Source: Clytia hemisphaerica (lineage: Eukaryota > Cnidaria > Hydrozoa > Leptothecata > Clytiidae). Taken from it: DNA of 64,000 nt. The stretch is from assembly GCA_902728285.1 (NCBI GenBank), contig CACVBU010000236.1, forward strand, positions 750,194 through 814,193, read 5' to 3'. How positions within the stretch are numbered: position 1 is the stretch's first letter; each line of letters begins with the position of its first letter. Below, piece by piece: positions 23,865 through 48,781 of this stretch. The notes under the pieces are model-generated. The model saw only the letters and a program-made list of their open reading frames with translations, did no database searches and was not told the origin of the DNA. The position numbers and the translations under genes are program-made.

Positions 23865-23915
23865 ATGCTGGTGAGATGCATGCTAAGCTATGTATTTCTT
23901 TCATCTTATTTATTG
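23865..23915 (+). CDS. Notch ligand exon 1: signal peptide
   Basis: Codes residues 1-17, a short hydrophobic leader with Met at 1 and 6, and ends in phase 0 at a GTAAGA donor. A possible acceptor (TTTCCAG) ends at 23837, so a 5' UTR intron may lie upstream. The start was chosen as the first Met of the only hydrophobic leader in frame with exon 2. Confidence 0.8.
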
Positions 23916-26900
23916 GTAAGATTTCCTTGTATATCGACTGTGATTGCTGATCAAAATCAATCGTCATGGATTATACTCTTGAACATAATTTTTAGCTAGT
24001 ACCGCCACTAATAAGGCCATGTTCAGATATAAGGTTTCGTATCGTTCTGCTATGGTTTTCGTTACGGATCGAAAATGTTCATATTGGAAAACGGGGAGCC
24101 GTTCCGTTCGGATGAAAATAGTGGAGCGAAGCCTTTTCGATCTATTTTACTTTGTAACGTCTTCTTTTTTGACGTTTCGAATTTTGACGTTAACATTAGT
24201 TTCGGAACCGTTTCGTTTCGCAACGATACGGAACAGTAACGTCTTTGCATGGTCTAAACCAACATATTTGCATCGTTTTAACGAATGAGAACTTTCGACA
24301 AACAGAGGCTCAAGACTGAGAACTACCGATAAATTTTTATTTACTTTTATCCCATAAAGGGAGAGGGCTACCCAGGTAAGAATAAGTGCATAGGGTATGT
24401 ATGTGTTAACGGGAGGGATCTCTTTAAAGAAAGTCAGTTTCTTTAAAGTAGAAAAATCGAAAATCGTTTTTCTTAGCGTCGATTTTATAACCAATTTATT
24501 TTATGACCCTTTTTTTCAAAACTTCAAGTTTTCAAAAGAATGAAGTATTTCTAAAGGTTCATGCTTCTAATACTTGTGTGCTTCGATATTGACATTGAGA
24601 ATCTTTCTTTCCAGAATATTGCCGGCAAAGCATTGGTCACGGTTCAACTCCAATACTTTGTGAATCCATCAAGTCGAGATTACAACGGTGACTGTTGTGA
24701 TGGCTTTTGTAGTTTGCCATGCGATAATTGGTTTGTAATTCGCATCAGTAAATTACCATTGAAACAGGATAACCAATGGATTTATTGGAAACGAACCATC
24801 ATTTATGACAATAATGATAACATCCAATTCGACTTTCAAAAGCCTGTTGGAAATGATGGTACTCTCAACCCTTTTAAATTCACATACGAAGGTCATCTGG
24901 TAAGCTACAATATTTAGTCTTGCATTATAGTAGTAATAGATATCTCACATATAAACGAGCTCACTTATCTACCCAGACAAAGGGGTGACTGAAGCAATTT
25001 GAGTAACCCGCAGTTTTGACCGAAAAAAAAACGAGGATTAAACTAAAGTTGAGCTAGTGTGGCAAGCACCTTAGACAGTTATTTATTTTCATCTTTCTGA
25101 CAGACAGGGCTCGGCTTTAACATTGATGTTTGGGATGATGATGGTGGTTACCTTGGTAACAAAGATGACCGAATCGATAAATATTTAGAAGAAGTTGATG
25201 ACCTCAAACCAAGTCATTTCGATGATCCCTCACCAAGTTATAAAAACCACCTTTTTAACGGCAAACAAAGCAGTATGAGTGTTGTCATTGGGTTAGTATA
25301 TAAACAAAAAAGCTTGAATTTTTGGTATCTTAAGGGAACGTTTTTTGGCGAAAACTGATTTGTCATGGCAGCAGTTTATTACTTTTGGCTGGAACTAATT
25401 TTCGTTACTTGGTTCTTTCATTCGTGGATAGCCAAGTTATCTAGGACGTTTGGATATTCTATTCATTGTTCACACGGGGTATAATGTGAGCTGTCTTGGA
25501 TAATTTTGAACTTAATGGAGCATGGAAATGAGAAGAATTTCGAACCAGGCACTCATTTGTCGTAGCTCAAACGCCTTAGACCATTAGGTCATCGCTTTTT
25601 ATCTTTTAAAGATATGATGTCTCTGTGACCGTAGCGACCGTAGTGTAGTGGTAGAGCATCCGGCTACAGTTCGCAAGGTTGTGGGTTCAACCCCCAGCCA
25701 GATCATACCAAAGATTCTCAAAATGGTACTTGATACTTCTCTGCTCTGCTCAGCAATTAAGAGAAAGATCAAAGGTAAGTTGAGAAATCCAAGGAGAAAG
25801 AGTGGCGCCCTATCCTACCTTCGGGTAAATAGCTATCGAAAGAGGAGCCTTCGGGTCGCCTCCGACTGCAGTCGCAGACTTACTTACTTATATCTCTGAG
25901 GTGTATTCATTTCCCGTGTATTTTCTTTTAGATCTCAATGTGTACGTGATTGGTATGATGCGAAATGTTCAACATATTGTGTTGCTAAGGATAATGATCA
26001 AGATGGCCATTATACTTGTCATAAAAAAACTGGTGCTAAATTATGTATTCAAGGTTGGGCTGGTCCCAACTGTCTTGACGGTAATTATGTTTAGACTCTT
26101 ACACCTTATCTAAAACCGTTTTTTTTTTCATCTTCTTTCACTGTAAAACTAAAGAAAACAAGACGACTCAGAGTCGAAAATTTCGCACAGTGTTTGATTA
26201 TTCATAGATGAAATAATCATTTTAAACGACCGGGACTGGGGGAGTACTAGGGTTAGAATGTCAGGTCAGACCTGAGAAAAACTGGCTCTAACAGAGAATA
26301 AAGTTATCCTTACAGAGACAAGTCGAAAAAGTGACTCTAAGAACAATTTTCAAAAAAATTCTAACCTTCTAGAGATCTTTTTTTGACTTTTCAAGTTTCG
26401 TACCTTAAATAATTCAGAGACACTTGGGAAGGTCAAAAACCAAACCTTAGTATCAGCACATACCTGTCACCCATCAATGTCTAAGTACTCCCCTTTACCA
26501 TTAAAAGAATGCAATAAATAGAACGAGGCTAGAGCTAGAGCTTTATTGCCACCTAAATGTGAACTGTCCCAGTGTGGCCAAGTTACATGAATACAGTCCA
26601 CATTAGTTTTTACTGCCAATATATATGAAATTGTATATAGTTTGTATATTTAATTTTTGTATATAGAACCTGACCTGTGTTGACAAATAAATAAATACCA
26701 ATCTGACAAAGATATATACAAGAATTTACAAAAATACAAAAAGTTTACACCTTGTAGATAAATCGACTTTAAACCAAATTAAACCAAAACATATCAAAAA
26801 GCTGAAACTCTATATTCTGCTATTTTGGTCGTGTTTGCTATTTTCAATATTTTAGCCCACAAGGCTGTACAGTAACTTTTTATCTTCGAGAGGTACGTGA

Positions 26901-29900: not shown

Positions 29901-32900
29901 TTTTGCACAGTGATGCAAAATGGCAATGCCCAAAATGTGACGGAGCCCGATTTTCGAAAAAAAAATTTTTCCGGCCGAAAATGGCGGAAATATGCCGGAA
30001 AAACTGGTTTTTCGGCATTTTCTCGAGATTTCATCATTAGTTTTTTCTGATTCTTAGCTCAAAGATGCGTATTAACAATGCCCAAAACATGGCCTAGTCC
30101 GATTTTTGAGAAAAAATTTTTCCGGCCGAAAATGCCGGAAATATGCCGGAAATCGCCGTTTTTCTGGATTTTCATTAGACTTTTCCATATAATTGGTTGT
30201 TTTTTCATTCAAATAGATTATTAATAGCAATGCCCACCATCAAGCATGTTTCAATTTTCAATAAAATTGATTTCTGAAGCCGGAACTTTCTAAAAATCGC
30301 CGGAACAGCCGATTTTCGCCGGAAAAACGGTATTTCTTGAATTTCTTGAGCTGTACTTTATATATTTTTATGAAATTTTGCACACTGATGCAATATGACA
30401 ATACCTAAAATGTGACGGAGCCCGATTTTCGAAAAACATTTTTTTCCGGCCGAAAATGCCGGAAATATGCAAACCGGTTTTTTGACTTTTTCTCGAAATT
30501 TCATTCTTAGTTTTTTTCTGATTTTTTCTAGAAAGATGCGTATTCGAAATGCTCAAAAAATGGCCGAGTTCGATTTTTGAGAAAAAAAATTTTCCGGTTG
30601 CCGGAAATCGCCGTTTTTGCAGATTTTCATTGGATTTTTTCCTTGTATTTCTATGTTTTTTCACACAAAAACATTATTGATAACAATGCTCACCATCAAG
30701 CATGATTCAATTGTCAATAAAACTGATTTTTGCGACCAGAACTTCCTATTTATTTTTTCCCTACAACCCTTCTCTCTCCCCCCATCAACAATCAATGATG
30801 AATTTATTGTGTTGTGTATTTTCGCTAAATGCTATATTTTCTGACTGATTTTTTTCATTTTTCTCCTCGCATTGCTATCAATGCTAACTAACTTTCATCA
30901 TCAGGTAGGTCCATTCAGCATGTTGCTTGTTTTATTTAAATTTTACAATGTTCGCCTTGAATAAAGATTTACCTTAAAAATCAATCAATTATTTTATTCT
31001 TGTAGCCGTTTGTCACACAAATTGCCAACTGAAACACGCAAGCTGCTCTCAACCTGGTGACTGCGAGTGAGTAACAAATCTCTGATGCAGAACACAACAT
31101 ATCGGCATGCCTAGAGGCCGGTCTCCACTTGCGCGCGCTGCAATCGCACTTTTTGGCTTCAATTCTTTTTGCTTGGAAAAAAGATTACGTCATAAAAATG
31201 TAGCGCGCGCACGAAAAAAAAGTTGAACACATTTCAACTTTTTTCAACCGTTACGTCAGATCGCGCCAATGGAGTTGCTTCATTTTTCTTTTGACCAATA
31301 GCATGGAAGCTTTTCTCGAAAAGTGCGATTGAAGCGCGCGCAAGTGGAGACCGGCCTTAAGTTTCAGCCAAACTATAAAATGTCTTTGTTTGAGAAAGAA
31401 TTGAAGAAACCATTTATAACGACGGCTTTTTGTCTACTTTAAACGACAAGTGATGTAGCCCAAACGTAAACGATTCTGATGTTTATCAAAAAAGCCGTGA
31501 AAAAGTCGTTTCTCTCTACAAAGTGTAAGTTCAAATCATCAGTTGTTGATGAATCAGACCTTGGTTGCGTTAATATTTTTTGACTTGTTAATTATATAGA
31601 TTATTAGGAACAACTCCCTCCTCGGCTAACGTAGTTTTGGATACCCCAAATCCCAGGCGGGACAGGGTGGTACCCGCAATGACGGCTAACTAAAAAGAGT
31701 CGTGTTGCAACGAATTTATCGGAGGAATGGTTTCCTGGTGTAAGTTTGAACACGAAAGCCTATATTATAAGTTTAGTCACAAAATTTTTCTATGTCCCTT
31801 CTTACACAGCTGTGATGATGGATGGATGGACAAATTTGACACTCCAAAGAGTTGCAGTCAATGTAGAAAAAAATCGGGCTGCAGTAAGAAATCATTTAGT
31901 TCAAACCTTCATGTATACTGGTGGCACTTAGGCAAAATGGGTGTTTGATATATGTGAGCCATAAGGGTCCATTTACACACTATTGAAAGTCTATAAAAGG
32001 GTTACAAAAACCATGAATTAGCAGAATTGAGTCTCTAAAAGGATCTCAAAAATCGACTCCCTCAAGGAGTCAAATTCTTGTAATTTGGTTGAGAATCTAA
32101 GTCTATAATAAAACCTGCACCTAATTTTCGGCTTAGCGTAAGGGGACTGAATCCGAATTTACCTGGGTTGATTAGCATCAAAAGACGCTTGAAGTACTCA
32201 TAAATAGATAGAGAATTTTCGAATTAATTCAACCCCAGGTTAAATCTAATCCTGTCCAACCCTATCGATAGGGTTTGTTAGGCTTAATATACAGTAGACT
32301 CGCTTATTTGAGCTTCTAATATTCGAATCTTTCTATAATTCGAACTTATAAGTCCCTGCCAAGAAAAAGCCTCTTAAAATTATTTCGATGATTCCAATCT
32401 CTCTGTAATTCGAACAAATAACATTCCCCGGTCTAGTTTGAATAAATAAGACTCTACTGTATCTGTATTTGGAACTTTTCAACGAATAGAAATTTAAAAT
32501 TCTCAGTTGCTTATTTTAGAAAATGGATTTTGCAAAGACGGGAATGATTGTCATTGCAATTCTGAATGGGTCGGAGATTTATGTGATAAAGGTAATGAAG
32601 AGTGAAATTATGGTATGAAATCTGTCTCAATATAATCTGCACAGCAGAGCCAAAAAAGACTGTAGAAAGAAATCAAATCATGGAAACAATGTACTCTTAA
32701 TGTTTGACTTGAAAAGTTCAACTCATAAAAACACTGCTCTTTGTATTAAACGGCAAATGCTCAATTTATGCAAAACTGTAGACTTGAAAGAGCAGTTGTT
32801 CCCGAATTTACATACCTTCAAATTTATTTGACTTCCTTTAAACATCTAGACAACAACACATGTCGAAGTTCACCTTGTCTCAATGGAGCTACATGTATCA

Positions 32901-35900
32901 ATGATGGTTTGGATCGATATAAATGCCAATGTAAACCAGGCTTTACTGGAATGCAATGTCAAACAGGTTACTTTTACTTTGTAAAAAAATATGTATGTAA
33001 AATGTTGTACCTAACCACGAATATTAAACTGGCTGATTTTGGACAAAAATGTTCCCCGTATGAAGGCAAATTATTTAGATTGCTTTTCTTGTTGCAGGTA
33101 CTTGAAAAATACCTCGCGTACCGAATAAGAAATACTTGTTTGATCCTAACTTTTCTTGGTCTTTTGTTGTTTACTATTTTGAAATAATTTTCGCCGAACA
33201 AATTCTGAATACGTTTTTCTATTTAGAAATTGATTTATGTGTTGGCTCACCTTGCGTAAACGGAGTGTGTAATAATTTTGGTACTCGATATACTTGCACG
33301 TGTTTCCTAGGTTACTCCGGACGCAATTGTACTCATAGTAAGTCTGTGTTATATTAAGCAGTTATTGGACAAAGTCGAATCCAATATGCAAAAATATTGG
33401 GCGTGCGAGAAAAGATATTGGACGAGGCTTCGCCGAGTTCAATATCTTTTCTCGTAGCCCAATATTTTTCATATTGGATGAGACTGCGTCCATTTCGCTA
33501 AAATATTTCTCGTTTTCAAACATAATTCCAATTTATAAGCTCGTAAACCTGGTTTCTTGGTAGTTTTTTATTCAAAAGTCTTATTTTTATTTTGTGACGT
33601 AACGTCAAAAAGAAGATGCTCAATTGTCATTGAACTCGTTGTGTGACGTCAATTTTTGAAATATGTAGCCCCCGTGGAAGCTATATATTCGAAAATATTG
33701 GACAGCAAAGAAGCCAATCAAATGTCGCTATTTACGCGCGTTGGATAATAATCACAGATATCATATTCTTTTACGCATTAGATAGGCTAAGTACTCACAG
33801 ATTTCCCGTGGAAGTGTGTCCAATTTTGAAGTCGACTAGTCCGCCTTGTTGCTTTTCAATTTTATCTTATACTTTTGAACGTTCGAATTTCAAAATATTC
33901 GAATCGCGCTGTTGACGACCAGAATTGAAAACAAGATTACGGACTAGTAAGCTCCAAAACTGGACATGTTTCCTTTTATTTGGGAAGCCCGATCAAGTCA
34001 AGTAGTTACCGTCAACTGCTCTAACTTGGGACTATCTGACAAAACATGGGACGGCAATTCGGCAACCATTTCACCGAACCTCCAAAGTCATTTTCTTTGA
34101 GTTAATGAACGGCGTATTAAAAAATACACGATTTCTCTTTCGATTTTACAGTAAGTGAAAATACAGACCAGATATGCAACAGTCCCATGTTTCGACCAAT
34201 CGTCCCAAGTTAGAGTAGTTGACGGTAGAGATCAGTGATAAAATTAAATATGGGAAGATAAATCATCTCAGGATTTCCTTGTTGCTCTTACTTACGGTCT
34301 GGGTCACAACTAATAATCCCAGCATTGAATAGAACTTGAAAAGTAAGACTTTAATCAAGAAATAACTAAAATATTACCTTTTCATCCTGCCTTGCTCTTT
34401 AAATCCTTTTTATCAGTTTTGTGCCTTTTGTCAGTACTCGTAAACTCTCGCTTATTCGAACTTTTATTATTCGAATCTTATTATAATTCGAACTTGTTTC
34501 CAGTCCCCGTCAAGAGAAACCCTCTTAAAATACTTTCACTAATTCGAATCTCTCTTTAATTCGAATAAATTAGATTCATCCCGTTCGAGTTCGAATTAGA
34601 GAGAGTCAACTGTGCTAATTTCAACTCTTCTTTGTTTTCAGATATTGATGACTGTTCACCGGACCCTTGCAAAAACGGTGCTCGTTGTGAGGTAGGTGCC
34701 CCTCTCTGTCATCGTACAGTTTCATTAAGGACTCTAACCTTACTGAATTTTTCATATTTGCCATGTACAAAATATAGATTTCTGCCTGATGTAACCAACA
34801 AAATTATGGCATTTTATACATTTTCTGCTCGGCCAACTATTCCTGAATCTGAAAAATTAAGTTCTTTGCGGACAAAAGAATTTCGAAAGAAAAAGGTTAA
34901 TAACCCATTGGAACGTTGTATTTTTTGTAAAAGAGCGTTATAACATTTTATTAATGTCTTTTAAAAGTTCATAGCGCCATTTTTGTAATTAAATTGTTAA
35001 TTACTCTTGACAGAATAAATTACCAAACAACTTTTTAAAAGATTTTCTAGTTAAAAGTTGTCAAGGAACCCAAAATAAAAGTTTTAATCTTCAAATCCCT
35101 TAACCAATTTTTTGACTATGGTCAGTGCCTTTAGGCCGGATAGCTTAGGTTTTTCTCACCCTTCTCAGACAAATTTCCTCTTCGTGGAAGTAGCCTGAGA
35201 AATTTTCATTCGTACTTGCAATATATCAGCAAATACAAATAATACGATAAATAAAAGTCTTCTGAATTACAGCTAGGTTAAAAGATTCGAAAAAAAGAAG
35301 CTTAAATCTTAAAAATTATACCCTCCAACACACACGAAAATCCTTTTCATTGTTCTCGATATACAGGATGGGATAGCATCGTACAAATGCCACTGTTTGA
35401 ACGGTTACAAAGGAAAGGACTGTGACACCAACATCGACGATTGTGTGAATAATAAATGTCAAAACGGCGCGCAATGCATTGACGGCGTGGCGAACTACAC
35501 GTGTGGCTGTCGGTTGGGATTTGATGGGATGTTCTGTGAGAATAACATCAACGATTGTAAATCAGTGCCTTGCCAAAATGGAGGTTAGTTATAAGATATA
35601 ACGTTGTTGGACCTACCTCCGGGTACCCCGTTGGAGGTCCTATAAGTTAACCTGTGTTCGTCCGTCCGTTCGTTCGTTCGTCTGTTACCAGCTTTTCTCG
35701 AGATTGGCTCATTAGTTTTTTCTGATTTTTGGCACAAAGATGCAAAATGGCAATGGCCAAAATGTGACGGAGCCCGATTTTCGAAAGAAAAATTTTTCCG
35801 GCCAAAAGTGCCGGAAATATGCCGGATATATGTTTATGAATATGTTTTTTTGGCATTTTCTCGAGATTTTATCATTAGCTGTTTCTGAATTTTTGCTCAA

Positions 35901-38900: not shown

Positions 38901-41900
38901 AATTTAATTTTCTTAAATTATAGACATTAACAATTGTGATCCCCGTGACCCTCGGAATTCAAACGACTTGCCGGAAGGTGCCGTTCTTACTGCATGGGGC
39001 TTTTGCGGACGCAATGGACAATGCGTTGATGGAGTGAACGCCTTTTCGTGTAATTGCTCTGTAGGATATCATGGGCAGTACTGCCAATATGGTATGTTTA
39101 ATACGTCAATATCAGCGAGCTTATATATCTATATTTTTCTGCGACTGAGATGGTTAGCTTCTGATTTCTCTAGCTCCTGAATGAGGAGGAGAGTGAACCA
39201 GTATTTTTACTGTCCTTGATTTTGCGGTTCAGGACTGGCTTGTTAGAAATCATTTCAGTCACACCGCTGTCCTCAAAAGTGAATTGCGTAAACCTGCTAT
39301 TATCATTAGTCTGTCCTGCCCTAGTGAGAAGTCTTTCGCGAAATTTCCACATCATAGCACTTTGACTTCAAAGATATTTAAGAAGAATTGATAGAATTAT
39401 TGATGTGCGTTTTGAATGATCCAAGTATTCATAAAATTTCTCATTCTATTGATATTCTGTAATGTATAGATTCGATATAATAAGTACTTCTTGTCTCCCG
39501 AATAGAATAATTCAATATTTTATTACAGTGTAGATAGACCTTAAACTTGTTAAAATTTTCCTTTTTGTTAGTATTGGTTCTTATTTTACGTGTTCATTTG
39601 TTAAAATTGTTGTTGAAATTGATATCAGTTAAAAAAATTCTGTCTTCAAATTACCCCCCCCCCTACTTATTCGGACCCCCCCCCCCGTCTATTCGGGAGA
39701 CAAGAGTACTTCTTCTTCATAAACTACCCCTCCTCTTCTTCTTCTTTAGACACAGATGAATGTGAAGACAAGCCGTGTTTGAACGGTGGTGCGTGTCATC
39801 AAAACCCTTCAAGTCCTGGCTACTATTGTACATGCGCACCAGGATATGATGGCAAAGATTGTCAAAACAGTAAGATATTTTTTTCTTCTGTTTAGTAAAG
39901 GAAGATCCTGTGAAACGTAGAACCTTAGCTAAGTCAGATACCTTTTTTGCCGTCATTTTTATCAACAATTCGCTCTGTCCAAGGACGGGCCGCTAAAAAG
40001 AGTTTGACATCAGCAATGTTTAGCAGTTTCTTGGACGTCAAAAAGACGTTGTGTACCAGTTGATAGTAAATAGTAAAACTGTTATATTGTCATATCATCC
40101 ACCTTCTTTTCTTCTTCAATAGATATTGATGAATGTACCACACCGAACGAGAAAGGAGTTCGTGGAAACGAAACATGTTGTGATGGTGCGAACACTTGCC
40201 GTGATGCTGTCAACGGTTTCACTTGTCAATGTCCCACAGGAAAAGTTGGAATCGACTGCTGCTCAAGTAAGATTTGCATTTGATCAAATAAGATTCTTTT
40301 ATTAACCAAATAGCTGTATTATTTCGATGTTGGAGAGACTCCTTTTGCTTTTTCAAATCAAAACACTAAAAGTTATAGAAGATATATATATATAAAAGAT
40401 TTCCAGTTTTTTGTGTCTGGTGTATTTTTTTCTACCACAATGAAAAAGAGGTGTAATAGGCAGGTTTTTCCCTAATCTTACAGTAGGAGAGGGTAATAGG
40501 ATAGTAATCTAAAGTGTCGATCATCTCTGATTCCAACTTCTTTAATTCGACTCAAAATAAAGTGGCATAAACTACTCCCTGTAAATCGAATCTTTATTTA
40601 ATTTAAGGAATAATCGAACTGAAGAGAGTCAAATGTAGAACGTAAAAATGTGTGTTTGACGGTTTTTCATTTTTCATTTCCATCACCCCATAGCACTTTC
40701 GTGGTGTTCCAATAATGATACCTGTCATAAGAATGGAAAATGCTCTGACACGATTTCACAGACAACCAATCAACCTACTGGTTTTACTTGTCAATGTGAC
40801 CAAGGATGGACTGGTGATCGATGTCAAACAGGTATGTGTGGTCACACTTTCTCAAACTAATTTTTGTAACTTGAAAAAGGTTTTTACCGTGCAGGCACGA
40901 CGAAAGCTTTTTATATCTGGTACGGCGAATGAGGAAATTTCAGCAATTTTATAGCAATTTTACCGACGAAGAGGAAAATTTCGGGTTTTTTTGTGAAAAT
41001 TTGGTACGATGGCCACCGTACCCGTTGCGTGGTGTCTGCCGTGCCAATCCTGATAAACATGTGCTAAACTTAATCACTTCATTAGGTATTTTTTGGTCTG
41101 AGGTGTTCCCAAAATATATATAAGTCCCTAAAGTTTACGCATGATTAGACTGAAAATGAGAGAATTTCGTTACATCACGCTAATTATACAGATTTTTTTT
41201 ATCAACAACAAAAGAAATCCATTAACCGAAACAAACCTCCTTAAGGGAAAAAAAACTGGTAGATGGTATTTCTTTTGTTTTCAAGAAGCTGTTTTTCTAT
41301 CCCTTTACACTCCTCTGGTTAATTAAAGTTAAGGGGTTAATCCAGAGTAGTAGAGTTTGGATGTTTCTTCCACCAGTTGAATGGTGTGATCTTGCTTCTC
41401 TTCCACCAGTTGAATGGTGTGATCTTGTTTCTCTTCCACCAGTTGAATGGTGTGATCTTGTTTCTCTTCCACCAGTTGAATGGTGTGATCTTGTTTCTCT
41501 TCCACCAGTTGAATGGTGTGATCTTGTTTCTCTTCCACCAGTTGAATGGTGTGATCTTGTTTCTCTTCCACCAGTTGAATGGTGTGATCTTGTTTCTCTT
41601 CCACCAGTTGAATGGTGGGATCTTGTTTTATTGATATCCTTACTAGAAAGGCCACTATAAGGACTTAGGTCGTTTGAGAAAAAAAACAGCATCTTCTTCC
41701 GTAATCATAAGGTTCATTAGATTTGTTCTTCTTCTTCGTTTTTTATGCCAAATATAAATTTTTCTCTTTCGATGAAACTTGTTTCATCAATATTCTTCCC
41801 TTGCTTATGTTCCAGACATCAATGAATGTCTTAATGCGAAAACATGTCGTAGTGGAGCTAAGTGCATCAACAGTCCCGGCAACTTCACCTGTATTTGTCC

Positions 41901-44267
41901 CGCAGGAAAGACTGGTCGAAATTGCGATGTTGGTAAGAATGGTTTTCACTTTCAGACAAATGGGCTATTCCAGAAAAAAATTGTATCTATGTTGCGGAGG
42001 TATTTTTTTTAAAAAGGTGACCCCCTGGATTTTTTTCCAATTTTTCAGAACCCCCTTGGATTTCTTTCCTCGTTTTATTCACCACTCTCAATTTTCAACC
42101 TCATTTTACTGACCCTGGATTTTTTATTTTCCAGACTACTCTGGACGTCACACCTCCTCAACATAGGGGGTACAGACTATTTCTGGAATAGCCCAATCTT
42201 GTTCGCATTAATCATAGTACTTTAAATGGAGCATTAGCTGAGTGATAGCAAATAACTATCTATAAATCGATCTGAAAGCCCCCTGGAGAAATGAAAGATT
42301 GTCAAAAATGAGTTGTCAACCAGTAAAATATATTCTACAAAGAACACCAATTCCAATACCTCACTCTGCGAAAATAAGTTTCCTTAGGGCGAAAAAAATG
42401 TGTTATTTTTCTAATTTTTAGAATTTTTTTTATCATTTTGTGTGAGAATCGTCAGAATTTAACCTATTTTCGGTGTTAGGAGTTTCGCCTGTAGAGTCAG
42501 ATTTTGGGTCAAAAACTTTTACCGGGCTTAATTTTTGGGCCATCTTAAAAAAGTCTCAAGGTCCTATTTTTTTCAAACCAACCACATGCGGTTGATCCCC
42601 ACGAAATTTGCTACGGATCCTAAGGGATAATGTAATATATTTGTCAATTCTTCTTTTACAGAAATTGACGACTGTATTGATGCGAAATGGTAAGTTTGTT
42701 AGCATTTAAAAAGATTCAAATTCTGCTAGCATTAAAAAAAATCAAAAGCTTTTCCTACCTTCAAATAAGTGCTTATCGATTTGATGTCAAGCTTTTTTAA
42801 AGACTTTTTGGGGCTTTTTTGGATCGGGAAATGAGGAACAAATTACGTCTGCTACATTTAAAACAACACTCGTTTATTTCTCAGTCAAAACGGAAAGCAA
42901 TGCGTGGATGGTGACAATCGTTTTCATTGCAATTGTTCCGGTCCGGGATTTACACGTCCACTATGTGAAGGTAAGCGCAAGAAAATGAAACTCTGTCAAA
43001 ATTTTCTCCATTGATAATAAGAGGAAACTTGCATCAAGATAAGACTTTTCTAAATTGATAACGAAAATTGGACTAGTGGATTATTGAGGCGACTTTTTTA
43101 GAGACCTGATCACAATTTCCTATCAATGAACGGAATAAAATGGTTTCCAACCACTAAAAACCCTGGACTAAGCTTTATCTGCAAATTTTGATCGGAATTT
43201 TCTAATGTCACATTCACTGTTCAGACGTAAACGAATGTGAAGACAATCCATGCCCGTCGGATCGTCGATGTGTCAACACCGTTGGAAATTATGAATGTCA
43301 TTGTCTAGAAGGATGGACTGGTATCAATTGTCAAACTAGTAAGTCTCCTACTCAAAGTTATTTCAACGTTCATCTAACGTTGTTTGGACGTTATGAACGT
43401 TAAAATGACATCGTTTTCACGTAATGTGCCAGATGGGACACCATGTCTCATTTGGCCAAAGGAAGTCACAGAATGAGAGGTTGGGGATAGAATAGTCAAA
43501 GCAAAACAAACCTCTTGTTCAAGCTTTTACTCGTAAACTTATGAGTTTTGTGTATTGGTAATAATTTATTTTGGTGTCTGAGTACCAGATAAACGTTATC
43601 TTTCTTAATCTAATTTGAACAACTTATTTAAAAACAGGCCTGTTACATTGTCACCTTAATACAGCTCAAGGCCGGCCGATCGAAGTGTGATCAGATTTGT
43701 GGTAAATTTGAGCTATTCTTAAACGAGCTGAGTTTTACCGGGGCAATAAGGCATTATTCACGACCATTAGCGTGGTGACTCGACCGAAGAAGGCTGAATG
43801 AGAAGAGAAATTTTTGCCAAATTTTGACCTAAACTTCAATGAGAAAAAAAATCGCTTGCGAAGTGAAAACGAAAATATTTTGGTAATTTTTTCCTCTCTA
43901 GGCAAGAAGCTGCTCCGTTTGTGCAGTGTAAAATAGGAAAGGGGCACCGAAATTAGTAATCGGATCACTTTGTTTTTTGAGGCCCCAAATAATCGGTCAA
44001 ATTTCCCCTTCTGCCTATCCTGCCACCAAGATACTGCCGGGGATATTTTTATAATACTAATCGAGGTTTTTAAAGCTGGAAAAATCTATTTGATTCTCTT
44101 TTTCTCATTAAGGTGTGGATGATTGTGTAGACAATGAATGTAAGATGTCTCATACCAAAGAATGCATCGATAAGCATTTATCTTATGAATGCCAATGCTT
44201 GGATCGATACGAGGGTAAACATTGTGTTGAAAGTGAGTAACGTATTTAACGTTTTGTGAATTTCGTT

Positions 44268-44298
<31 letters not shown>

Positions 44299-47200
44299 TC
44301 GTTCGTTCGTTCGTTCGTTCGTTCGTTCGTTCGTTCGTTCGTTCGTCCGTTCGATAGTCTGTTACCAGTTTCTAGTAGGAACCAATTCAAATTTTTTCAT
44401 GATATCATTCTATTTGGTTATTGTCCAAAGAAACTATTTCTTACATTACAGCATCCTAAATAACTTTAATTGTTTGCAGGAAAAGCGCTGGAACCGGGTG
44501 CAAACGCTACGAAAGACGAATGTGGATGTTTATACGGTGCTTGTATGTTCAATGAAGATCGTGTACAAATCTGCAAGTGTGACCCTGGATTCCGTGGTGG
44601 TAAGTCGTGGTTTCACTTTCCTTGAAATATTTTAAGATATAAGGAGACTATTCTACCTGTTTTACTCTCTTACTGATACTTAAACTATTCTTATCTTTTA
44701 AAGTAACTTCACCGAATATTCAGCTCTTATAAATTATCTAGTCCTTGTAATTCAATGGTGCTCACCTAGATGAGAAAATATTTTGATCATATAAAAACAT
44801 CTTAGAAACAAATTATATTCATTTCCTGGAGAAGAAGGAAATTATTTTTCTGGGGCATTTTATAGTGCGCACAATCTGCAAATCTTTTCTGATATTCTGG
44901 TCATTTTCTTGCCATTTATATCTTTTTATAGGAAAGTGTCTCGCTCCAACTAACGAGGCTTCTACAGACGAAGTAAAGGAAGGTATTTTGATTATTGGTA
45001 ACTATGCCGGCTTGACCAAATTTCTCTCTTATCTATATATTGAACTATTTTCTAGACCCCTGACCCAAGGATACTATCATTGCTGATCGATAATGGTGTT
45101 CCGTTGAGGTTCTGAAAATGGATCATGCGTTGGACTCATGAACATAATTTGGACATTTTTGCCAAGATTTGGGGACAAAGAATTCTAAATGATCAAGGTT
45201 GGCCTGATGTTTTTTCTACCGATAACCATTTTCCATGTCTTTTTTTTTAGTATCTTTGGGAGCACCGACTTTAGTTTGCATAGCAATTGGAGGTTTCTTT
45301 GGCATTGTGTTGATTGTACTTTTCGCTATTTATTGGAAAAGAAGAGCTCCATTGGAGATACAAAAGTACGGTACAAAAGGTGAGCCAGTGTTATTACGCC
45401 TTTTTTATTTTCATGGCAGACGATTCTTTTTACCTTACTGGCAAACAACGTCTTTGTAATGTTAAAATAAACCAGCCGAGGCTGGAAGGTCAGCCAAAAG
45501 AGCTAAGAGGGTTAAGGGTTAGAGGGTCAAAGGGGTTAGAGGGTCAAAGGGGTTAGAGGGTCAAAGGGGTGAAAGGGATAATGTTGATGAGATGCGAGCA
45601 AATGTTAGATCAGGGTTCGATACAATGGCAATTATCTGCCGGTCCAGGAACCTCGCTCGTTTGGGATGTTAGTTAATCTAGTGTAATTAAACTTTCTGTT
45701 CATTTTAGTCAGTTATAATATATTTTTTCTGTTGGGTGTAGACAATATCCATATCTGACCAAAGTGTTATACTACAAATATATAAGAAAATTGCCAAAAA
45801 GTCAAACCCAAAATAAAGATACATGCCAGTGCAGAACCATTTTTAGTTTTCATTTACATAGAAACTGTACTTTTTTTGTTTAAAACCCCAATAACACTTT
45901 GTCGTAACTCTCTGCAGCTTCTTCTAAAAATTGTAACTGACTGCCATTAAGCTACAAACTTTAAGAAAACCGCAAACTCCTGAAAAACATAGTTTTTGCC
46001 TATATAGAAATGGATCAGTTATAAATATCTTTTAGCTTGTTTCTCTTCTTAATTTAATTTTATTATTTAGTTTGTTTATGTGTTTGGAACTGCGGGTCGG
46101 TTTTAGATTTTACCTGAGGGAGACTGAGTGTTGGGTACCCGTAACACGTGTAAAGTCGCTTTGAACTGGTCACAAGTCCGGGACTTCAGGCATAGTTTTT
46201 GTTTTCTATTTATATATGTGTGTTGAGAGTTGTTATTTGGTGGTTTTGTGTTTCTCATTCTTTTAAATTGACCATCTCTCTTTTGTTTCAAAGTCCCAAA
46301 TCTTTCTTATTGTATTTTTCTTCTGATATTGGAATGATTTCAAGGTCTTTCAAAAAAATAATAAATCAAAAAATGTATAATCTTCAAAAATACAAAAACA
46401 TTCTTTTCTTTTTAATTTAGATCTTTTTAAGCTGCTTATATATCAAATCTTTTCCTTTCCTTAAAATGACTGATATTACATCTTCAGTATATATATAACT
46501 TTGTGAGAAATATTTTTATCCTTCATAAATTTCTAAAGCAGGAACAATTTTAGTCTGTATACTTTACCAACTTCCAATATATAACACCTTGTCACAATTC
46601 TCTGCAGCTCCTACCAGAAATTGTAACTGGTCGCCATTAACAATTTTAAGCTACAGTAGTCACAAACCGCACACTCTAGAAAAACACATTTGCCAGAGAG
46701 TGGCCATGTTGTATTACTTGATGGTATTGGTATATATACTTCATTAAAAAATCTAGAAACCATTTCTCATAACTTTCTGCAGTCCGCTTTCTGCAAGTCC
46801 GATAAAACATACCTTAAAGGAAGAAATTTTGGCGGAAAGAAAATTTAGCGGATTTGGCGGATTTGACTGTTCGGAACTGCGTGAAAAATAATTTGATCAA
46901 TTTCAACAAGGTTCCCTCACTTGCCAAGCGAGCTGCCGTGAGTAAGAATAGAACCTTGATCTCCCGTACAAGAATCAAGGTTGATGACCACTGTACCACG
47001 GCAGCAGGTAGAGTCTGTAAGTCTGAAAGCTTTTCCGCTGCTTTGCTGGATTCCCACTGTCAACCTCTACACGCTCTGTGTTTACAAGTTTTCAAATCGA
47101 AGTAGCGAGCTGCGTGCTAATGGAGAGTAAACCGAAAACCAGTTTATCCACGGTTGACAGTTTCTCAATTTCTTAATTTGGACCAGTCCACGCCGATTCC

Positions 47201-48758
47201 CTTTCAACAAGATGAAGCTGTTTCTTTAACAGAAAAATATTTTCGATCGACCGACCGAACGACCCACTTTTTAAAGTAGAAATGACGGGAACCAAACAAT
47301 TTTTTACCGATACACAGGACATTCCGGTGCAGTTTGTCAGGTGCGCAAATATGTGGATAAATCACTGGACAAAAGTTCCGGTGTACTTTGTTTCTGAGAG
47401 AAAAATGTACCAGACAATCCGGTGTAGTCCGGTGTGCACTTTTGAAAATTTAATGAAGAAAACACCAGACAAAAAATAATGCCGGAATGTACGGTGTAAT
47501 GGCAGGGTCGTCTGAAGACAAACACGTCCAAGTCCAAAAAAACAAGATTGCATCCAGTCTTTATCAAATTTAGACAGTAGCTGTACTTTTGTATGCTTTA
47601 TCAAATTCCAATAGCATTATAAAACCATCGACCCCCCTCTAGAGGCAAACAAGAAAAATATGTTTTTATTGCAAAAACTACTGTACTGTAATAAAAAGCA
47701 ACAATAAAAAGTATCAGAAAATTCAACATAAACAAAAACTTGAGCAAACGGCTTTAAACTTTCAAAAGATGTAGAAAAAGAATCCCCTTGATGAAAATCA
47801 TGTGTTTGATTTGCCGAGTTAGAAAAATAAATGACAGAACTTGAAGCTTGCAACAATTCACACTGGAAATACTTTGGAACAACGCTTTATCGCTTGAGCC
47901 GCCATCTTGAAACACCACATTATGATCTGTAACAACAACACACGCTAAAAGTACCCAAAAAGTTAACCCGATCGGAAGAAAGTTTAGAAATCAAAGTGAG
48001 ATCGGGAAATCGGTTTTAAATGTTCCAAAATTTTGATCCAGAGCTTCACCAGTGGGAAAAAAATCGCGGAACCGATTTGAAGGGTCACCGAGGCTGACCA
48101 ATAACATTATTTTGACCTTGTGAACGTAGAATGAACATTATTTGGACCTTATAAACGTAGAATGGACGTTATTTGGACCTTATGAATGTAGAATGAACGT
48201 TATTTGGACCTTGTGAACGTAAAACAAGCACAGTTACTTGTCATTTCTGCTAACAAACCTTTCTTAAACGACTTTATATTCTTCATACTTTTTAGGCAAG
48301 TGTCTACTGCTTAAGATTCTATTGTTGCTTTAAAAAGCCTTAGAGTTGCCTTAAAGTTGCCTTAAAAAATAGTGTTTTGTTTTATCCTCCATTCCTAGCG
48401 TAGGGATGATTCTAGGGATTGTGTTTGCAGAAGAAAACTAAGGTGCTGATCTGGTCTGAATCGCAGACCTCTAGAATATAAACTTATATAAAAACCTTTT
48501 GATTAGCGGATGAGCAGAATTCTAGACTGCTTACATCTTACAGCGAATTTGAACTCCTTGTACTGCACGTGCGGATTCTAGAGGTCTGAGATGTAAAAAA
48601 AAAGATAAATCCTTCCGAATCCTTCTCTTTATCTTTATCATCTTCTTTCAGTATCGTATCACCACCAAAAGATGTCTGTACCAAACGAAAATCACCATTT
48701 TGATGGCGACGCAGACCTTATGTTCCGCAACCCCACATTCAACTTAGAAGTCAAATGA
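23865..48758 (+). CDS. jag: Jagged/Serrate-like Notch ligand, complete, 27 coding exons
   Basis: Single-pass membrane ligand for Notch receptors on neighbouring cells. Exons: 23865-23915, 24615-24899, 25104-25291, 25932-26080, 31006-31066, 31810-31883, 32520-32591, 32850-32966, 33227-33337, 34642-34691, 35367-35583, 37030-37175, 37627-38035, 38191-38439, 38924-39091, 39750-39869, 40123-40266, 40694-40831, 41816-41932, 42662-42689, 42885-42970, 43225-43338, 44113-44232, 44480-44599, 44932-44982, 45251-45379, 48652-48758. Every junction is GT/AG, phases agree throughout, total 1206 aa, close to vertebrate Jagged length. Seen: signal peptide 1-17, MNNL about 18-174 (C44, C45, C49, C53), DSL 176-224 with six Cys, EGF repeats about 226-1115, helix about 1135-1157, tail 1158-1206. 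Family knowledge: MNNL, DSL and the first two EGFs bind Notch. Jagged rather than Delta is inferred from the many EGFs and exon plan; no clear VWC-type domain is visible. Extra tail exons in the last 3.3-kb intron cannot be excluded. Confidence 0.93.
24615..24899 (+). CDS. Notch ligand exon 2: MNNL domain, first part
   Basis: Residues 18-112, phase 0 at both ends. It holds the MNNL hallmark: a CCDG motif at 44-47, then C49 and C53 followed by DNWF, matching the Cys-rich start of Jagged/Delta N-termini. This C2-like domain can bind membranes and Notch in known ligands. Confidence 0.92.
25104..25291 (+). CDS. Notch ligand exon 3: MNNL domain, second part
   Basis: Residues 113-174 plus two bases of codon 175. 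It is rich in Asp and aromatic residues (a VWDDDGG segment), as expected for the C-terminal half of MNNL. CAG occurs twice in a row at the 3' splice site; the first was used because it keeps the frame and a Thr-Gly start. Confidence 0.88.
25535..25596 (-). repeat. tRNA-like SINE head, intron 3
   Basis: On the minus strand a box A-like GACCTAATGGTCTAAGG and box B-like GGTTCGAAATTC have tRNA spacing. Stems do not close. Confidence 0.45.
25627..25893 (+). mobile_element. tRNA-derived SINE in intron 3
   Basis: The head has box A (TAGTGTAGTGGTAGAGC) and box B (GGTTCAACCCCC) with correct spacing. A body of about 190 bp ends in a (CTTA)n tail. A tRNA-like head, unrelated body and simple tail are typical for a Pol III SINE. 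Confidence 0.7.
25932..26080 (+). CDS. Notch ligand exon 4: DSL domain
   Basis: Residues 175-224, phase 2 in and phase 1 out. This is a full DSL domain with Cys at 178, 187, 191, 204, 213 and 222, GHYTC before the fourth Cys, and a GWAGPNC ending. DSL is diagnostic for Notch ligands and makes the main receptor contact. Confidence 0.95.
27465..27735 (-). mobile_element. tRNA-derived SINE in intron 4
   Basis: Read on the minus strand: box A TGGGATAGTGGTCATTAACC and box B GGTTTCGATTCC, then a body running left. The D-arm block TAGTGGTCATTAACCTTGA nearly matches 46932-47005. Confidence 0.55.
27745..28045. repeat. AATCGAT-rich palindromic block
   Basis: More than ten ATCGAT/AATTGAT units in both orientations over 300 bp, with an approximately palindromic plan. 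Non-coding. Confidence 0.6.
28046..28206. mobile_element. Short inverted-repeat element
   Basis: Ends TTGGTCTAATGTGTCG and GGGTGTCATTATTAGACCAA are inverted with mismatches. Immediately follows the AATCGAT block. Confidence 0.45.
28500..28690. mobile_element. TCGAACGGAATCG MITE, copy 1
   Basis: Starts CCAGACGATCTCAATCGAAC like the copy at 28788-28935. The right end is different or lost. Dense ATTCGATTGCG units. Confidence 0.6.
28788..28935. mobile_element. TCGAACGGAATCG MITE, copy 2
   Basis: A 148-bp element with near-perfect 33-bp inverted ends starting CCAGACGATCTCAATCGAAC. The whole can fold as a hairpin. Confidence 0.78.
29654..30913. mobile_element. TGGACCTACC element, copy 2 (intron 4)
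   Basis: Ends TGGACCTACC and GGTAGGTCCA. It holds a long (TTCG)n array near the left end, then repeated blocks ending in TTTTCCGGCCG and ATGCCGGAAAT about 210 bp apart. Confidence 0.78.
29697..29853. repeat. (TTCG)n array, about 39 units
   Basis: Uninterrupted TTCG/CGTT tetranucleotide of about 157 bp. Read as codons it gives Thr-Asn-Glu-Arg on the minus strand, which is an artefact. Confidence 0.97.
31006..31066 (+). CDS. Notch ligand exon 5: EGF1, first half
   Basis: Residues 225-244 plus two bases. It starts with AVCHTNC, as the first atypical EGF after DSL does in Jagged proteins. The donor GTGAGT follows GA. The intron before it (4.9 kb) is the longest of the gene. Confidence 0.88.
31115..31357. 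mobile_element. MITE with GGCCGGTCTCCACTTGCG ends (intron 5)
   Basis: About 40-bp inverted ends that include GCGCGCGC blocks, 243 bp overall. Ends 450 bp before exon 6. Confidence 0.8.
31810..31883 (+). CDS. Notch ligand exon 6: EGF1 end and EGF2 start
   Basis: Residues 245-269. Without this exon the frame breaks between exons 5 and 7. With it the reading matches the Jagged pattern C-x2-GW, C-x2-C, GC across EGF1-EGF2, the DOS region. Acceptor ACACAG, donor GTAAGA. Confidence 0.86.
32292..32459. mobile_element. Pogo/Tigger-like MITE (intron 6)
   Basis: TA-flanked; starts CAGTAGACTCGCTTATTTGA and ends AGACTCTACTG, with ATTCGAA motifs. CAGT ends with TA duplication are typical of pogo-type elements. 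Confidence 0.72.
32520..32591 (+). CDS. Notch ligand exon 7: EGF2 end
   Basis: Residues 270-293, phase 1 to phase 1. NGFC, then CHC and W-x-G-x2-CDK, as at the end of EGF2 in Jagged. Confidence 0.9.
32850..32966 (+). CDS. Notch ligand exon 8: EGF3
   Basis: Residues 294-332, one complete EGF repeat of six Cys in a symmetric 1-1 exon. Confidence 0.93.
33227..33337 (+). CDS. Notch ligand exon 9: EGF4
   Basis: Residues 333-369, one complete EGF repeat opening with EIDLC. Symmetric 1-1 exon. Confidence 0.93.
33382..33482. repeat. Near-perfect 100-bp palindrome (intron 9)
   Basis: TCCAATAT...AAATATTGGG...GAGAAAAGATATTGGACGAGG pairs with the inverse around a GGCTTCGCC centre. Likely a very short MITE or hairpin repeat. 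Confidence 0.75.
34009..34225. mobile_element. TA-flanked MITE, CCGTCAACT ends (intron 9)
   Basis: Inverted ends CCGTCAACTGCTCTAACTTG, flanked by TA. A related half-element is at 3283-3400. Confidence 0.75.
34437..34614. mobile_element. Pogo/Tigger-like MITE, degenerate (intron 9)
   Basis: ACTCTCGCTTATTCGAAC at the left and TTCGAATTAGAGAGAGTCAA at the right are inverted. It ends 28 bp before exon 10. Confidence 0.62.
34642..34691 (+). CDS. Notch ligand exon 10: EGF5, first half
   Basis: Residues 370-386 (NIDDC ... GARCE), a calcium-binding type EGF start, split in phase 0 after its third Cys. The rest is in exon 11. Confidence 0.9.
35367..35583 (+). CDS. Notch ligand exon 11: EGF5 end, EGF6, EGF7 start
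   Basis: Residues 387-458. It opens with DGIASYKC, the usual second half of a calcium-binding EGF, then a whole repeat (NIDDC), then NINDC up to QNG. Confidence 0.93.
35608..36718. mobile_element. TGGACCTACC element, copy 3 (intron 11)
   Basis: Same ends and block order as the copy at 29654-30913, with a much shorter TTCG tract (about 35660-35680). It starts 25 bp after the exon 11 donor. Confidence 0.78.
36964..37041 (+). repeat. 39-bp tandem duplication over the exon 12 acceptor
   Basis: ATAAAAATGGTCTAATTTTC... occurs at 36964 and again at 37003. Both copies contain the CATTAAAG acceptor and the first exon bases. Confidence 0.93.
37030..37175 (+). CDS. Notch ligand exon 12: EGF7 end, EGF8 start
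   Basis: Residues 459-507. The splice acceptor and first exon bases lie in a 39-bp tandem duplication (36964-37041), so an upstream acceptor giving a start at 36991 is equally shaped. It would add 13 in-frame codons without a stop. The downstream site was chosen because it gives normal EGF spacing. Confidence 0.88.
37627..38035 (+). CDS. Notch ligand exon 13: EGF8 end to EGF11
   Basis: Residues 508-643, the largest exon. It holds the end of EGF8, whole EGF9 and EGF10, and most of EGF11. EGF11 has an enlarged first loop with two extra Cys (CIVEC ... PCFEPRC). Repeats carry D-I-D/N-E-C calcium-binding starts. Confidence 0.95.
38191..38439 (+). CDS. Notch ligand exon 14: EGF11 end, EGF12 and EGF13
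   Basis: Residues 644-726, phase 1 to 1. EGF12 (VRIDYC) and EGF13 (NIDEC). The GTGAGT donor sits at the edge of a 28-bp tandem duplication. Confidence 0.94.
38441..38496 (+). repeat. 28-bp tandem duplication at the exon 14 donor
   Basis: TGAGTATTCTTTCTCAAAGT... at 38441 and 38469. Only the first follows the full GTGAGT donor context. Confidence 0.88.
38924..39091 (+). CDS. Notch ligand exon 15: EGF14 with insertion
   Basis: Residues 727-782. One EGF whose first loop, between the first and second Cys, is lengthened by about 17 residues (a [14 protein letters not shown] stretch). The remainder is standard. Confidence 0.92.
39750..39869 (+). CDS. Notch ligand exon 16: EGF15
   Basis: Residues 783-822, one complete EGF (DTDEC ... 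GYDGKDC), symmetric 1-1 exon after a CTTCTTCTTTAG acceptor. Confidence 0.94.
40123..40266 (+). CDS. Notch ligand exon 17: EGF16, unusual Cys
   Basis: Residues 823-870. An EGF with a long first loop and two Cys-Cys pairs (TCCDG and DCCS), giving eight Cys instead of six. Confidence 0.92.
40694..40831 (+). CDS. Notch ligand exon 18: EGF17
   Basis: Residues 871-916. One EGF lacking the calcium-binding start (LSWC) and with a long second half (a Thr/Gln-rich insert before GFTC). Confidence 0.92.
41366..41631 (+). repeat. 33-bp minisatellite, eight copies (intron 18)
   Basis: Unit CTTCCACCAGTTGAATGG... in eight near-identical copies. The unit is a multiple of three without stops in several frames, so it produces long false open frames on both strands. 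Confidence 0.93.
41816..41932 (+). CDS. Notch ligand exon 19: EGF18
   Basis: Residues 917-955, one complete calcium-binding type EGF (DINEC ... GRNC). Symmetric 1-1 exon. Confidence 0.94.
41962..42194. mobile_element. MITE with GGGCTATTCCAGAAA ends (intron 19)
   Basis: Inverted 15-bp ends. Internal CCTGGATTTTTT units. Begins 30 bp after the exon 19 donor. Confidence 0.7.
42662..42689 (+). CDS. Notch ligand exon 20: 28-nt microexon, EGF19 start
   Basis: Residues 956-964 (EIDDC ...). Only 28 nt, ending in TG so that the second Cys codon of EGF19 is split over the intron. Acceptor TTTTACAG, donor GTAAGT. Confidence 0.88.
42885..42970 (+). CDS. Notch ligand exon 21: EGF19 end
   Basis: Residues 965-993. 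It completes EGF19 (QNGKQC ... CNCSGPGF). Phase 2 in, phase 1 out, matching exon 20 exactly. Confidence 0.92.
43225..43338 (+). CDS. Notch ligand exon 22: EGF20
   Basis: Residues 994-1031, one complete calcium-binding type EGF (DVNEC ... GINC). Symmetric 1-1 exon. Confidence 0.94.
44113..44232 (+). CDS. Notch ligand exon 23: EGF21
   Basis: Residues 1032-1071, one EGF (VDDC ... GKHC). A (TTCG)n array lies 35 bp after its donor. Confidence 0.92.
44266..44352. repeat. (TTCG)n array (intron 23)
   Basis: About 20 TTCG units, followed by GTCTGTTACCAGTTTCT, the same sequence that follows the array in the TGGACCTACC elements. Looks like a fragment of one. Confidence 0.9.
44480..44599 (+). CDS. Notch ligand exon 24: degenerate last EGF
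   Basis: Residues 1072-1111. A Cys-containing segment (ECGC ... CKCDPGFRG) resembling an EGF that lost its regular first half; its last Cys comes from exon 25. Confidence 0.88.
44932..44982 (+). CDS. Notch ligand exon 25: juxtamembrane linker
   Basis: Residues 1112-1128 ([12 protein letters not shown]...), an acidic Thr/Ser stretch between the last EGF and the helix. In known ligands this is where ADAM proteases cut. Confidence 0.85.
45251..45379 (+). CDS. Notch ligand exon 26: transmembrane helix
   Basis: Residues 1129-1171. A strongly hydrophobic stretch of about 23 residues (1135-1157) followed by the stop-transfer cluster WKRR. Acceptor is a long T tract ending TAG. Confidence 0.93.
45510..45568. 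repeat. 18-bp tandem repeat (intron 26)
   Basis: GGGTTAGAGGGTCAAAGG repeated about three times, G-rich on the plus strand. Confidence 0.75.
45840..46700. repeat. Direct repeat pair in the last intron
   Basis: About 45890-45990 and 46580-46690 are related (AACTCTCTGCAGCT..., ATTGTAACTG.T.GCCATTAA). A third shorter match is near 46770. Confidence 0.55.
46932..47005 (-). repeat. tRNA-like sequence with perfect acceptor stem
   Basis: On the minus strand 74 nt begin GCTGCCG and end CGGCAGC, a perfect 7-bp acceptor stem. It has a box A-like GTGGTACAGTGGTCATC and box B-like AGGTTCTATTCTT. The anticodon arm does not pair normally, so a tRNA-derived SINE head is likelier than a working tRNA. Confidence 0.5.
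47290..47510. repeat. Relative of the CCGG-rich hAT-like MITE
   Basis: Scattered ACATTCCGGTG, GTCCGGTG and AATCCGGTG units and a GGCAGGGTCGTCTG end recall 1812-2155. Target duplication not found. Confidence 0.45.
48103..48226. repeat. 31-bp tandem repeat, four copies (intron 26)
   Basis: Unit AACGTTATTTGGACCTTATG... at 48103, 48134, 48165 and 48196. Shares ACGTT-type words with 57042-57129. Confidence 0.85.
48652..48758 (+). CDS. Notch ligand exon 27: cytoplasmic tail and stop
   Basis: Residues 1172-1206 and TGA. It contains FRNPTF (NPTF at 1198-1201), an NPxF/Y-type adaptor motif, and ends LEVK with no obvious PDZ ligand. A long intron precedes it, so further tail exons could be spliced in. 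Confidence 0.85.
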
Positions 48759-48775
48759 AATTTATTCAACATCCA

Positions 48776-48781
48776 AATAAA
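48776..48781 (+). promoter_or_regulatory. Candidate polyadenylation signal of the Notch ligand
   Basis: AATAAA 18 bases after the stop codon. A second AATAAA lies at 49374-49379, beyond a MITE. If the first is used the 3' UTR is very short. Confidence 0.4.

Follow-up and report, generated by a model that had tools for sequence, protein, structure and literature searches.

Notch ligands are cell-surface proteins for signalling between neighbouring animal cells. Delta is defined in PMC5356439 by a signal peptide, an MNNL domain, a DSL domain, at least nine EGF repeats, a transmembrane (TM) segment and an intracellular domain. EGF numbers given in PMC2770060 range from 0 to 75 for Delta and from 12 to 18 for Jagged; deuterostome Deltas have an average of 7–8 repeats, and in Amphimedon, AmqDelta4 has none and AmqDelta3 has ten. 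Ligand tails are described in PMC1965462 as usually spanning about 100–150 aa, and short tails are found in HyJagged (about 50 aa) and AmqDelta1. Jagged has been reported as missing from sponges and placozoans (PMC2770060, PMC5356439), and trees based on the DSL domain are described as poorly resolved (PMC2770060). At the gene level, PMC2725086 reports a phase-2 boundary after the fourth cysteine of EGF1 and a phase-1 boundary after EGF2 in JAG1, JAG2, DLL1, DLL4, DLK1 and DLK2, with the equivalent of JAG1 exon 6 usually lying between phase-2 and phase-1 introns and four EGF1 cysteines lying upstream.

We analyzed a Clytia ligand gene at 23865-48758 (+) of the window, i.e., of the 64,000-nucleotide stretch that corresponds to C169:750194-814193 in the assembly used for our own-genome search (417,433,876 bases, 951 contigs). 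Exons were placed from stop-free frames and then by reading frame, cysteine pattern, GT-AG sites and phase, with exons 5 and 6 (61 and 74 nt) and the 28-nt micro-exon at 42662-42689 coming from scans for small phase-compatible exons. An independent, exon-by-exon rebuild returned the same figures as the preliminary description, namely 27 exons, 26 GT-AG introns, a CDS of 3621 nt and a protein of 1206 aa, with consistent phases throughout and a single stop, at the end (Table 1). In-frame stops are found directly upstream of the start codon. The shortest accepted intron is 155 nt long, while introns 4 and 26 span 4925 and 3272 nt, respectively. One exon boundary has two equal solutions: an exact 39-bp tandem duplication (36964-37042) spans the exon 12 acceptor, both copies score 6.26 bits, and use of the upstream acceptor would add 13 aa in frame within EGF7, for a total of 1219 aa. 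A stop-free frame that overlaps exon 6 appears transposase-like by eye, with only a weak and unrelated Pfam match (E 0.13); the reading of exon 6 as a chance or transposon-derived frame was rejected, as a paralogue on contig C34 has an equivalent exon. The view of this locus as a complete Notch ligand gene was borne out by the coherent 27-exon frame, the DSL domain, the EGF array and the TM stretch. The gene is real, intact and well supported, its tail excepted.

Table 1 Exons of the Clytia ligand gene (window positions), their content and the supporting evidence
Exon	Position	Strand	Content	Evidence or remark
1	23865..23915	+	Start codon and probable signal peptide; ends in phase 0	Upstream in-frame stops; donor GTAAGA; N-terminal hydropathy
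2	24615..24899	+	First part of C2/MNNL; phase 0-0	MNNL 20.0 bits, cut-off 22.5; C34 30% identical
3	25104..25291	+	Remainder of C2 domain; ends in phase 2	Inside JAG2 match
4	25932..26080	+	DSL (protein 178-223); ends in phase 1	Pfam PF01414 (DSL), 1.6e-9; PDB matches
5	31006..31066	+	EGF1 cysteines 1-4; ends in phase 2	Boundary as in vertebrate JAG/DLL and C34
6	31810..31883	+	End of EGF1, start of EGF2	C34 counterpart with similar long EGF1 loop and same extra intron
7	32520..32591	+	Remainder of EGF2; ends in phase 1	Boundary equals JAG1 exon 6 end; C34 counterpart
8	32850..32966	+	EGF3	Collinear with JAG/DLL
9	33227..33337	+	EGF4	Gene model and cysteine parsing
10	34642..34691	+	First half of EGF5	Gene model and cysteine parsing
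11	35367..35583	+	Remainder of EGF5, EGF6, start of EGF7	Gene model and cysteine parsing
12	37030..37175	+	Remainder of EGF7, start of EGF8	Start at 36991 (+13 aa) if the other in-frame acceptor is used
13	37627..38035	+	Remainder of EGF8, EGF9, EGF10, most of EGF11 (8 cysteines)	Gene model and cysteine parsing
14	38191..38439	+	End of EGF11, EGF12, EGF13	Gene model and cysteine parsing
15	38924..39091	+	EGF14, long C1-C2 loop	C34 44%
16	39750..39869	+	EGF15	Gene model and cysteine parsing
17	40123..40266	+	EGF16, extra cysteines	C34 80% over 49 columns
18	40694..40831	+	EGF17	C34 49%
19	41816..41932	+	EGF18	C34 39%
20	42662..42689	+	28-nt micro-exon, first part of EGF19	Only one with an EGF start among 3 phase-fitting candidates
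21	42885..42970	+	Remainder of EGF19	Gene model
22	43225..43338	+	EGF20	C34 50%
23	44113..44232	+	EGF21	C34 fragment similar
24	44480..44599	+	Most of irregular EGF22	C34 fragment similar
25	44932..44982	+	Last cysteine of EGF22 and stalk	Gene model
26	45251..45379	+	TM helix and start of tail; ends in phase 1	Hydropathy 2.95 at 1137-1155; C34 TM exon in same place
27	48652..48758	+	End of tail (FRNPTF) and stop codon; provisional	Acceptor 8.1 bits; AATAAA at 48776

The HMM searches proposed with the original annotation recovered DSL and EGF domains and no VWC, while C2/MNNL remained just below the Pfam cut-off (20.0 against 22.5 bits, E 5e-4). The MNNL part alone gave a single PDB match at E<=10, Drosophila Delta, with an E-value of 5.1, and in the own-genome search the DSL domain scored 42.3 bits (C169:776132-776266). 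For the array, Pfam marked 18 EGF stretches and cysteine parsing yielded 21 repeats plus an irregular 22nd (C-x1-C-x4-C-x9-C-x1-C-x8-C), which the parser outputs as two halves; this agrees with the earlier estimate of about 21-22 repeats. EGF11 contains eight cysteines, and EGF16 and EGF17 jointly contain 14. After the DSL domain, EGF1 and EGF2 are of the short-loop type, with a C5-C6 loop in EGF1 that is longer than in JAG/DLL. A simple pattern identified a calcium-binding-type start in 15 of the 22 repeats, and an O-fucose-type pattern was seen in the C2-C3 interval of repeats 3, 7, 8, 13 and 16; flags for the latter in EGF17 and EGF18 were discarded, as there the match reads as C1-C2. At the DNA level, EGF-tail and EGF-head motifs number 13 and 10 on the plus strand, to be compared with means of 0.02 and 0.08 (maxima of 1 and 2) in 100 dinucleotide shuffles, an excess of more than 100-fold; the minus strand contained neither motif. 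The absence of an evident VWC-type domain was likewise confirmed, with no Pfam VWC match at E<=1 for the whole protein or at E<=10 for the juxtamembrane part, where a fragment from contig C928 served as positive control (32.3 bits, cut-off 27.6). By hydropathy only, the N-terminus (1.47) is a probable signal peptide and residues 1137-1155 (2.95) form a predicted single TM helix. Rfam returned nothing at gathering score.

When searched against the PDB, the protein matched DLL1 (3.7e-42, whole sequence), JAG2 (2.3e-36) and JAG1 (2.1e-31), collinear from DSL to EGF3, with the JAG2 match beginning already in the C2 domain. Over DSL-EGF3, identity amounts to 65/148 residues for JAG1 and 66/148 for JAG2 (44–45%), and to 60/149 for DLL1 (40%). 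The three references mutually share 84-105 of 148-149 residues over the same region and are thus nearer to one another than to the Clytia ligand, which lies outside all three. Both EGF1-EGF2 boundaries reported for the vertebrate genes are present in the Clytia gene, with one extra phase-1 intron between them.

A search of the own genome for DSL domains gave at least 46 matches on 11 contigs; no DSL match was obtained in 14 control genomes. The C34 paralogue was found with the N-terminal protein query (DSL 44%, MNNL 33%), and both of its domains exceed their cut-offs (MNNL 46.3 bits, DSL 43.0 bits). They are accompanied by 23 EGF-tail motifs (of 25, two being dropped as they lie outside any EGF fragment) and, downstream of the EGFs, by a TM exon that also encodes about 42 residues of the tail up to a donor site. 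The two ligands align over 714 columns in 13 collinear tblastn pieces with a mean identity of 48%, reaching 80% in EGF16, although the pairing of repeats is uncertain in the mid-array. They share their architecture, the extra EGF2 intron, the long EGF1 loop, the odd EGF14, EGF16, EGF17 and EGF22 and the TM segment, and differ in that C34 has an above-threshold MNNL, a few more EGFs by fragment reading and a different tail. The EGF1-EGF2 exons of C34 agree with those of the Clytia gene in their phases and in the extra intron and have a comparably long EGF1 loop, which supports the exon model where it is thinnest. On contig C928 (about 1971-1981 kb, +), MNNL (42.8 bits), DSL (38.8 bits), EGF-tail hits (20 of 21 kept, the one dropped lying in the VWC part) and VWC follow one another in that order. 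We read this gene as a Jagged that carries VWC and some 20 EGFs or more, a number above the 12-18 given for Jagged in PMC2770060. The readings of C34 and C928 consist of stop-free fragments and are not finished gene models.

Other DSL-containing frames were seen in the same genome. At C460:1970001-1977000 (-), an open frame of 406 aa begins with a C2/MNNL-like part (27% over query residues 12-222, E 0.001), which is followed by five DSL matches, with no EGF seen; it resembles an MNNL and DSL gene reported from a cnidarian. On contigs C432 and C354, DSL-like units (GHYxC...CLxGW) follow one another in tandem in open frames that lack EGFs, and at C898, about 1095009-1097927 (-), a long open frame consists of near-identical cysteine-rich units of about 32 residues that look like part of a DSL domain and are apparently recently amplified. 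DSL-only genes and one MNNL gene with three DSL domains are described from cnidarian genomes in PMC2770060, and tandem DSL repeats without EGF are described from bivalves in PMC8166818. In a wider contig search, which may omit records near the Clytia genome, a single bacterial locus was met, on the deltaproteobacterial MAG contig JAFGWT010000085.1, where an encoded stretch shows 31% identity to a portion of the DSL-EGF query.

Judged from its sequence, the gene is intact and would encode a Notch ligand of the Delta type (DSL) that works by the ordinary mechanism, a reading to which we assign a probability of about 0.85. It is favored by the 27 coherent exons, the DSL domain, the collinear PDB matches, the conserved EGF1-EGF2 boundaries, the C34 paralogue and the separate C928 Jagged; the sub-threshold MNNL, four changed contact residues (see below) and an N-terminal identity slightly nearer to Jagged speak against it. 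Compared with the Delta definition in PMC5356439, DSL, EGFs, TM stretch and tail are present, the signal peptide is seen by hydropathy only, and MNNL is below the cut-off. The VWC or juxtamembrane cysteine-rich domain that characterizes Jagged/Serrate was not found. Lacking VWC, the ligand, its sub-threshold MNNL aside, fits Delta rather than Jagged as these are defined in PMC8166818 and PMC5356439, and with a separate VWC-bearing Jagged in the genome it is best called Delta-type. This label derives from domain content, and pairwise comparison was with JAG1, JAG2 and DLL1 only. With metazoan Delta-type ligands, including AmqDelta1-5, it shares a probable signal peptide, the C2/MNNL cysteines, DSL, EGFs, one predicted TM segment and the absence of VWC, and, as in the Amphimedon Deltas, its MNNL is detected only weakly and its DSL contact residues are not conserved; it differs in having 22 EGFs, whereas Amphimedon Deltas have 0-10 and deuterostome Deltas 7-8 on average. 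With Jagged/Serrate (JAG1, JAG2, HyJagged and C928) it shares the collinear DSL-EGF3 region and the vertebrate EGF1-EGF2 boundaries, and with HyJagged the short tail as modeled. The preliminary description had called the combination of more EGFs than vertebrate Jagged (16) or Drosophila Serrate (14), no VWC and a 49-residue tail unusual. All three features are in the model, but the yardstick there was Jagged/Serrate; set against the EGF range reported for Deltas in PMC2770060 and the short tails already known, the combination is not exceptional. With 22 repeats, no VWC and a short tail, the protein is a Delta-type ligand that falls within the range already known, among those with long stalks and short tails. 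As C34 and C928 are also repeat-rich, the high count looks like a lineage trait, and repeat-rich stalks are common to at least three ligands of this genome.

The slightly higher DSL-EGF3 identity to JAG1 and JAG2 than to DLL1, together with the high EGF counts that are usual for Jagged (PMC2770060), could instead reflect a Jagged/Serrate that secondarily lost its VWC region and still signals as Jagged. This is quite unlikely, since a VWC-bearing Jagged exists separately on C928, no VWC-like piece was noticed by eye among the C34 cysteine-rich fragments listed, and the lean to Jagged carries little weight when the references are so much closer to one another. Loss of signalling ability should be considered as well. 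Residues F199, R201, R203, D205 and F207 of JAG1 lie on a face that is important for Notch regulation according to PMC3415683; the corresponding residues of the Clytia ligand are Y, V, K, D and D, so that D205 alone is kept, and YYG is replaced by WYD. These changes and the very short tail would suit a derivative of a ligand that has lost the capacity to activate Notch and serves in adhesion, cis-inhibition or as a decoy. The F207 region, however, reads RDKWDGHF in the C928 Jagged and ADDSIKGHY in C34, such that all three ligands lack F directly before GH(Y/F), and the Amphimedon paper describes ligands in which the contact sites are not conserved, yet which are developmentally expressed. The face that contacts Notch in bilaterians thus appears poorly conserved in the Clytia ligand as well as in C34 and C928, and a change common to C34, C928 and Amphimedon argues against a private loss of function. 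As the altered residues may only reflect a differently built interface and the tail has five lysines, a non-activating protein is unlikely, and we prefer the signalling Delta-type ligand.

The weakest part of the gene model is exon 27, and with it the length and motif of the tail. The 49 cytoplasmic residues of the preliminary description recur in the rebuilt model, with this exon remaining provisional. Its acceptor ranks 4th among 355 AG sites in 45.4-52 kb, while by codon score (-0.15 per codon) it did not rank in the top 15 of 59 candidates for a terminal exon; this score has little power, as the certain TM exon (exon 26) scores -0.29. No homologue of exon 27 was found. A scan of intron 26 revealed two extra phase-compatible exons, both starting at 45420, while the same scan in four other introns gave none. 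These candidates (45420-45488 or 45420-45551) were not accepted because an intron of 40 nt would remain, as compared to the shortest accepted intron of 155 nt, and their rejection is less firm than others. The length of introns 4 and 26, the lack of independent support for exon 27, its poor codon rank and the extra candidates present in intron 26 alone of the five introns scanned could all be taken to mean that two neighbouring genes were joined or that the 3' end is wrong. We regard this as highly improbable for the ligand as described, because the C2, DSL, EGF, irregular EGF22 and TM fragments of C34 occur in the same order on one strand with a conserved EGF1-EGF2 exon structure, and a wrong last exon would alter the tail alone.

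As modeled, the tail ends in LEVK (exon 27 being provisional) rather than in the ATEV PDZ-binding motif of most bilaterian Deltas, whose loss is reported for Delta-like proteins in PMC5356439. In the predicted tail, FRNPTF fits FxNPx(Y/F), an LDL-receptor-like endocytic motif, provided that exon 27 is correct. Among 100,000 shuffles of the tail, FxNPx(Y/F) occurred in 0.12% and NPx(Y/F) in 2.5%, figures that ignore other motifs that would have been acceptable. In the LDL-receptor signal, a phenylalanine is found two positions before NP, and F may replace Y. The NPXY of the LDL receptor binds ARH and Dab2 (PMC6912373). An engineered Drosophila Delta with the LDL-receptor motif, Dl-LDL, induced the wing boundary without Epsin, and in a Neuralized-dependent assay was nearly inactive, with only 2% weakly positive lineages, as reported in PMC10741450. 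If exon 27 is correct, the Clytia ligand would resemble Dl-LDL in having an LDL-receptor-type motif in its tail and differ from it in being natural. The PTB-adaptor idea has a precedent in PMC3482393, whose authors predicted PTB-binding sites in AmqDelta2-5 while adding a caveat. None of the titles or abstract openings of the literature matches listed announced a Notch ligand that naturally carries NPx(Y/F); this leaves the absence of such a motif unproven. It is thus conceivable, although very unlikely as a whole, that the FRNPTF signal recruits PTB-domain adaptors that make the pulling force instead of, or besides, Mindbomb/Neuralized ubiquitylation, in a ligand with a 22-EGF stalk and a Notch interface without the bilaterian F207 contact, i.e., a natural counterpart of Dl-LDL. 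The poor codon rank of exon 27, the two rival exons in intron 26 and the lack of an FRNPTF-type motif in the C34 TM exon argue against this route. On C34, an FRNPFEI followed by a stop lies some 17 kb beyond the TM exon in the downstream direction; it was rejected as the C34 tail, since a stretch that by eye resembles a short-chain dehydrogenase exon lies in between.

For the Delta-type ligand, the C2-DSL-EGF1-3 tip would bind Notch on a neighbouring cell, and the stalk of about 22 EGFs would keep this tip clear of the membrane. Endocytic uptake of the ligand by the sending cell would then pull Notch and lead to its cleavage, with the short tail possibly recruiting the endocytic machinery via its lysines, via FRNPTF, or via both. 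The long stalk would best be explained by module duplication, largely common to the C34 paralogue.

The Clytia ligand gene alone overturns nothing; its value lies in a well-resolved exon-intron structure from a part of ligand evolution where sampling is sparse. The genome combines two or more Delta-type ligands with long stalks, a VWC Jagged, a gene that joins a C2/MNNL-like start to several DSL units, and DSL-only frames, and this set makes ligand reach and the need for a canonical DSL contact face testable in one animal.

Several other features were observed in the window. A repeat block of about 1 kb, parts of which are up to 95% identical, occurs in intron 4 (29829-30933) and in intron 11 (35656-36728), and intron 18 contains a 33-bp minisatellite (41366-41628) with eight copies and 99% matches. 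At the end of the window (63502-63999), an open frame with a probable signal peptide matches no Pfam family above the cut-off. A 413-aa open frame at 20851-22089 (-), located upstream of the ligand gene, matches reverse transcriptase (RVT_1, 3.2e-26).
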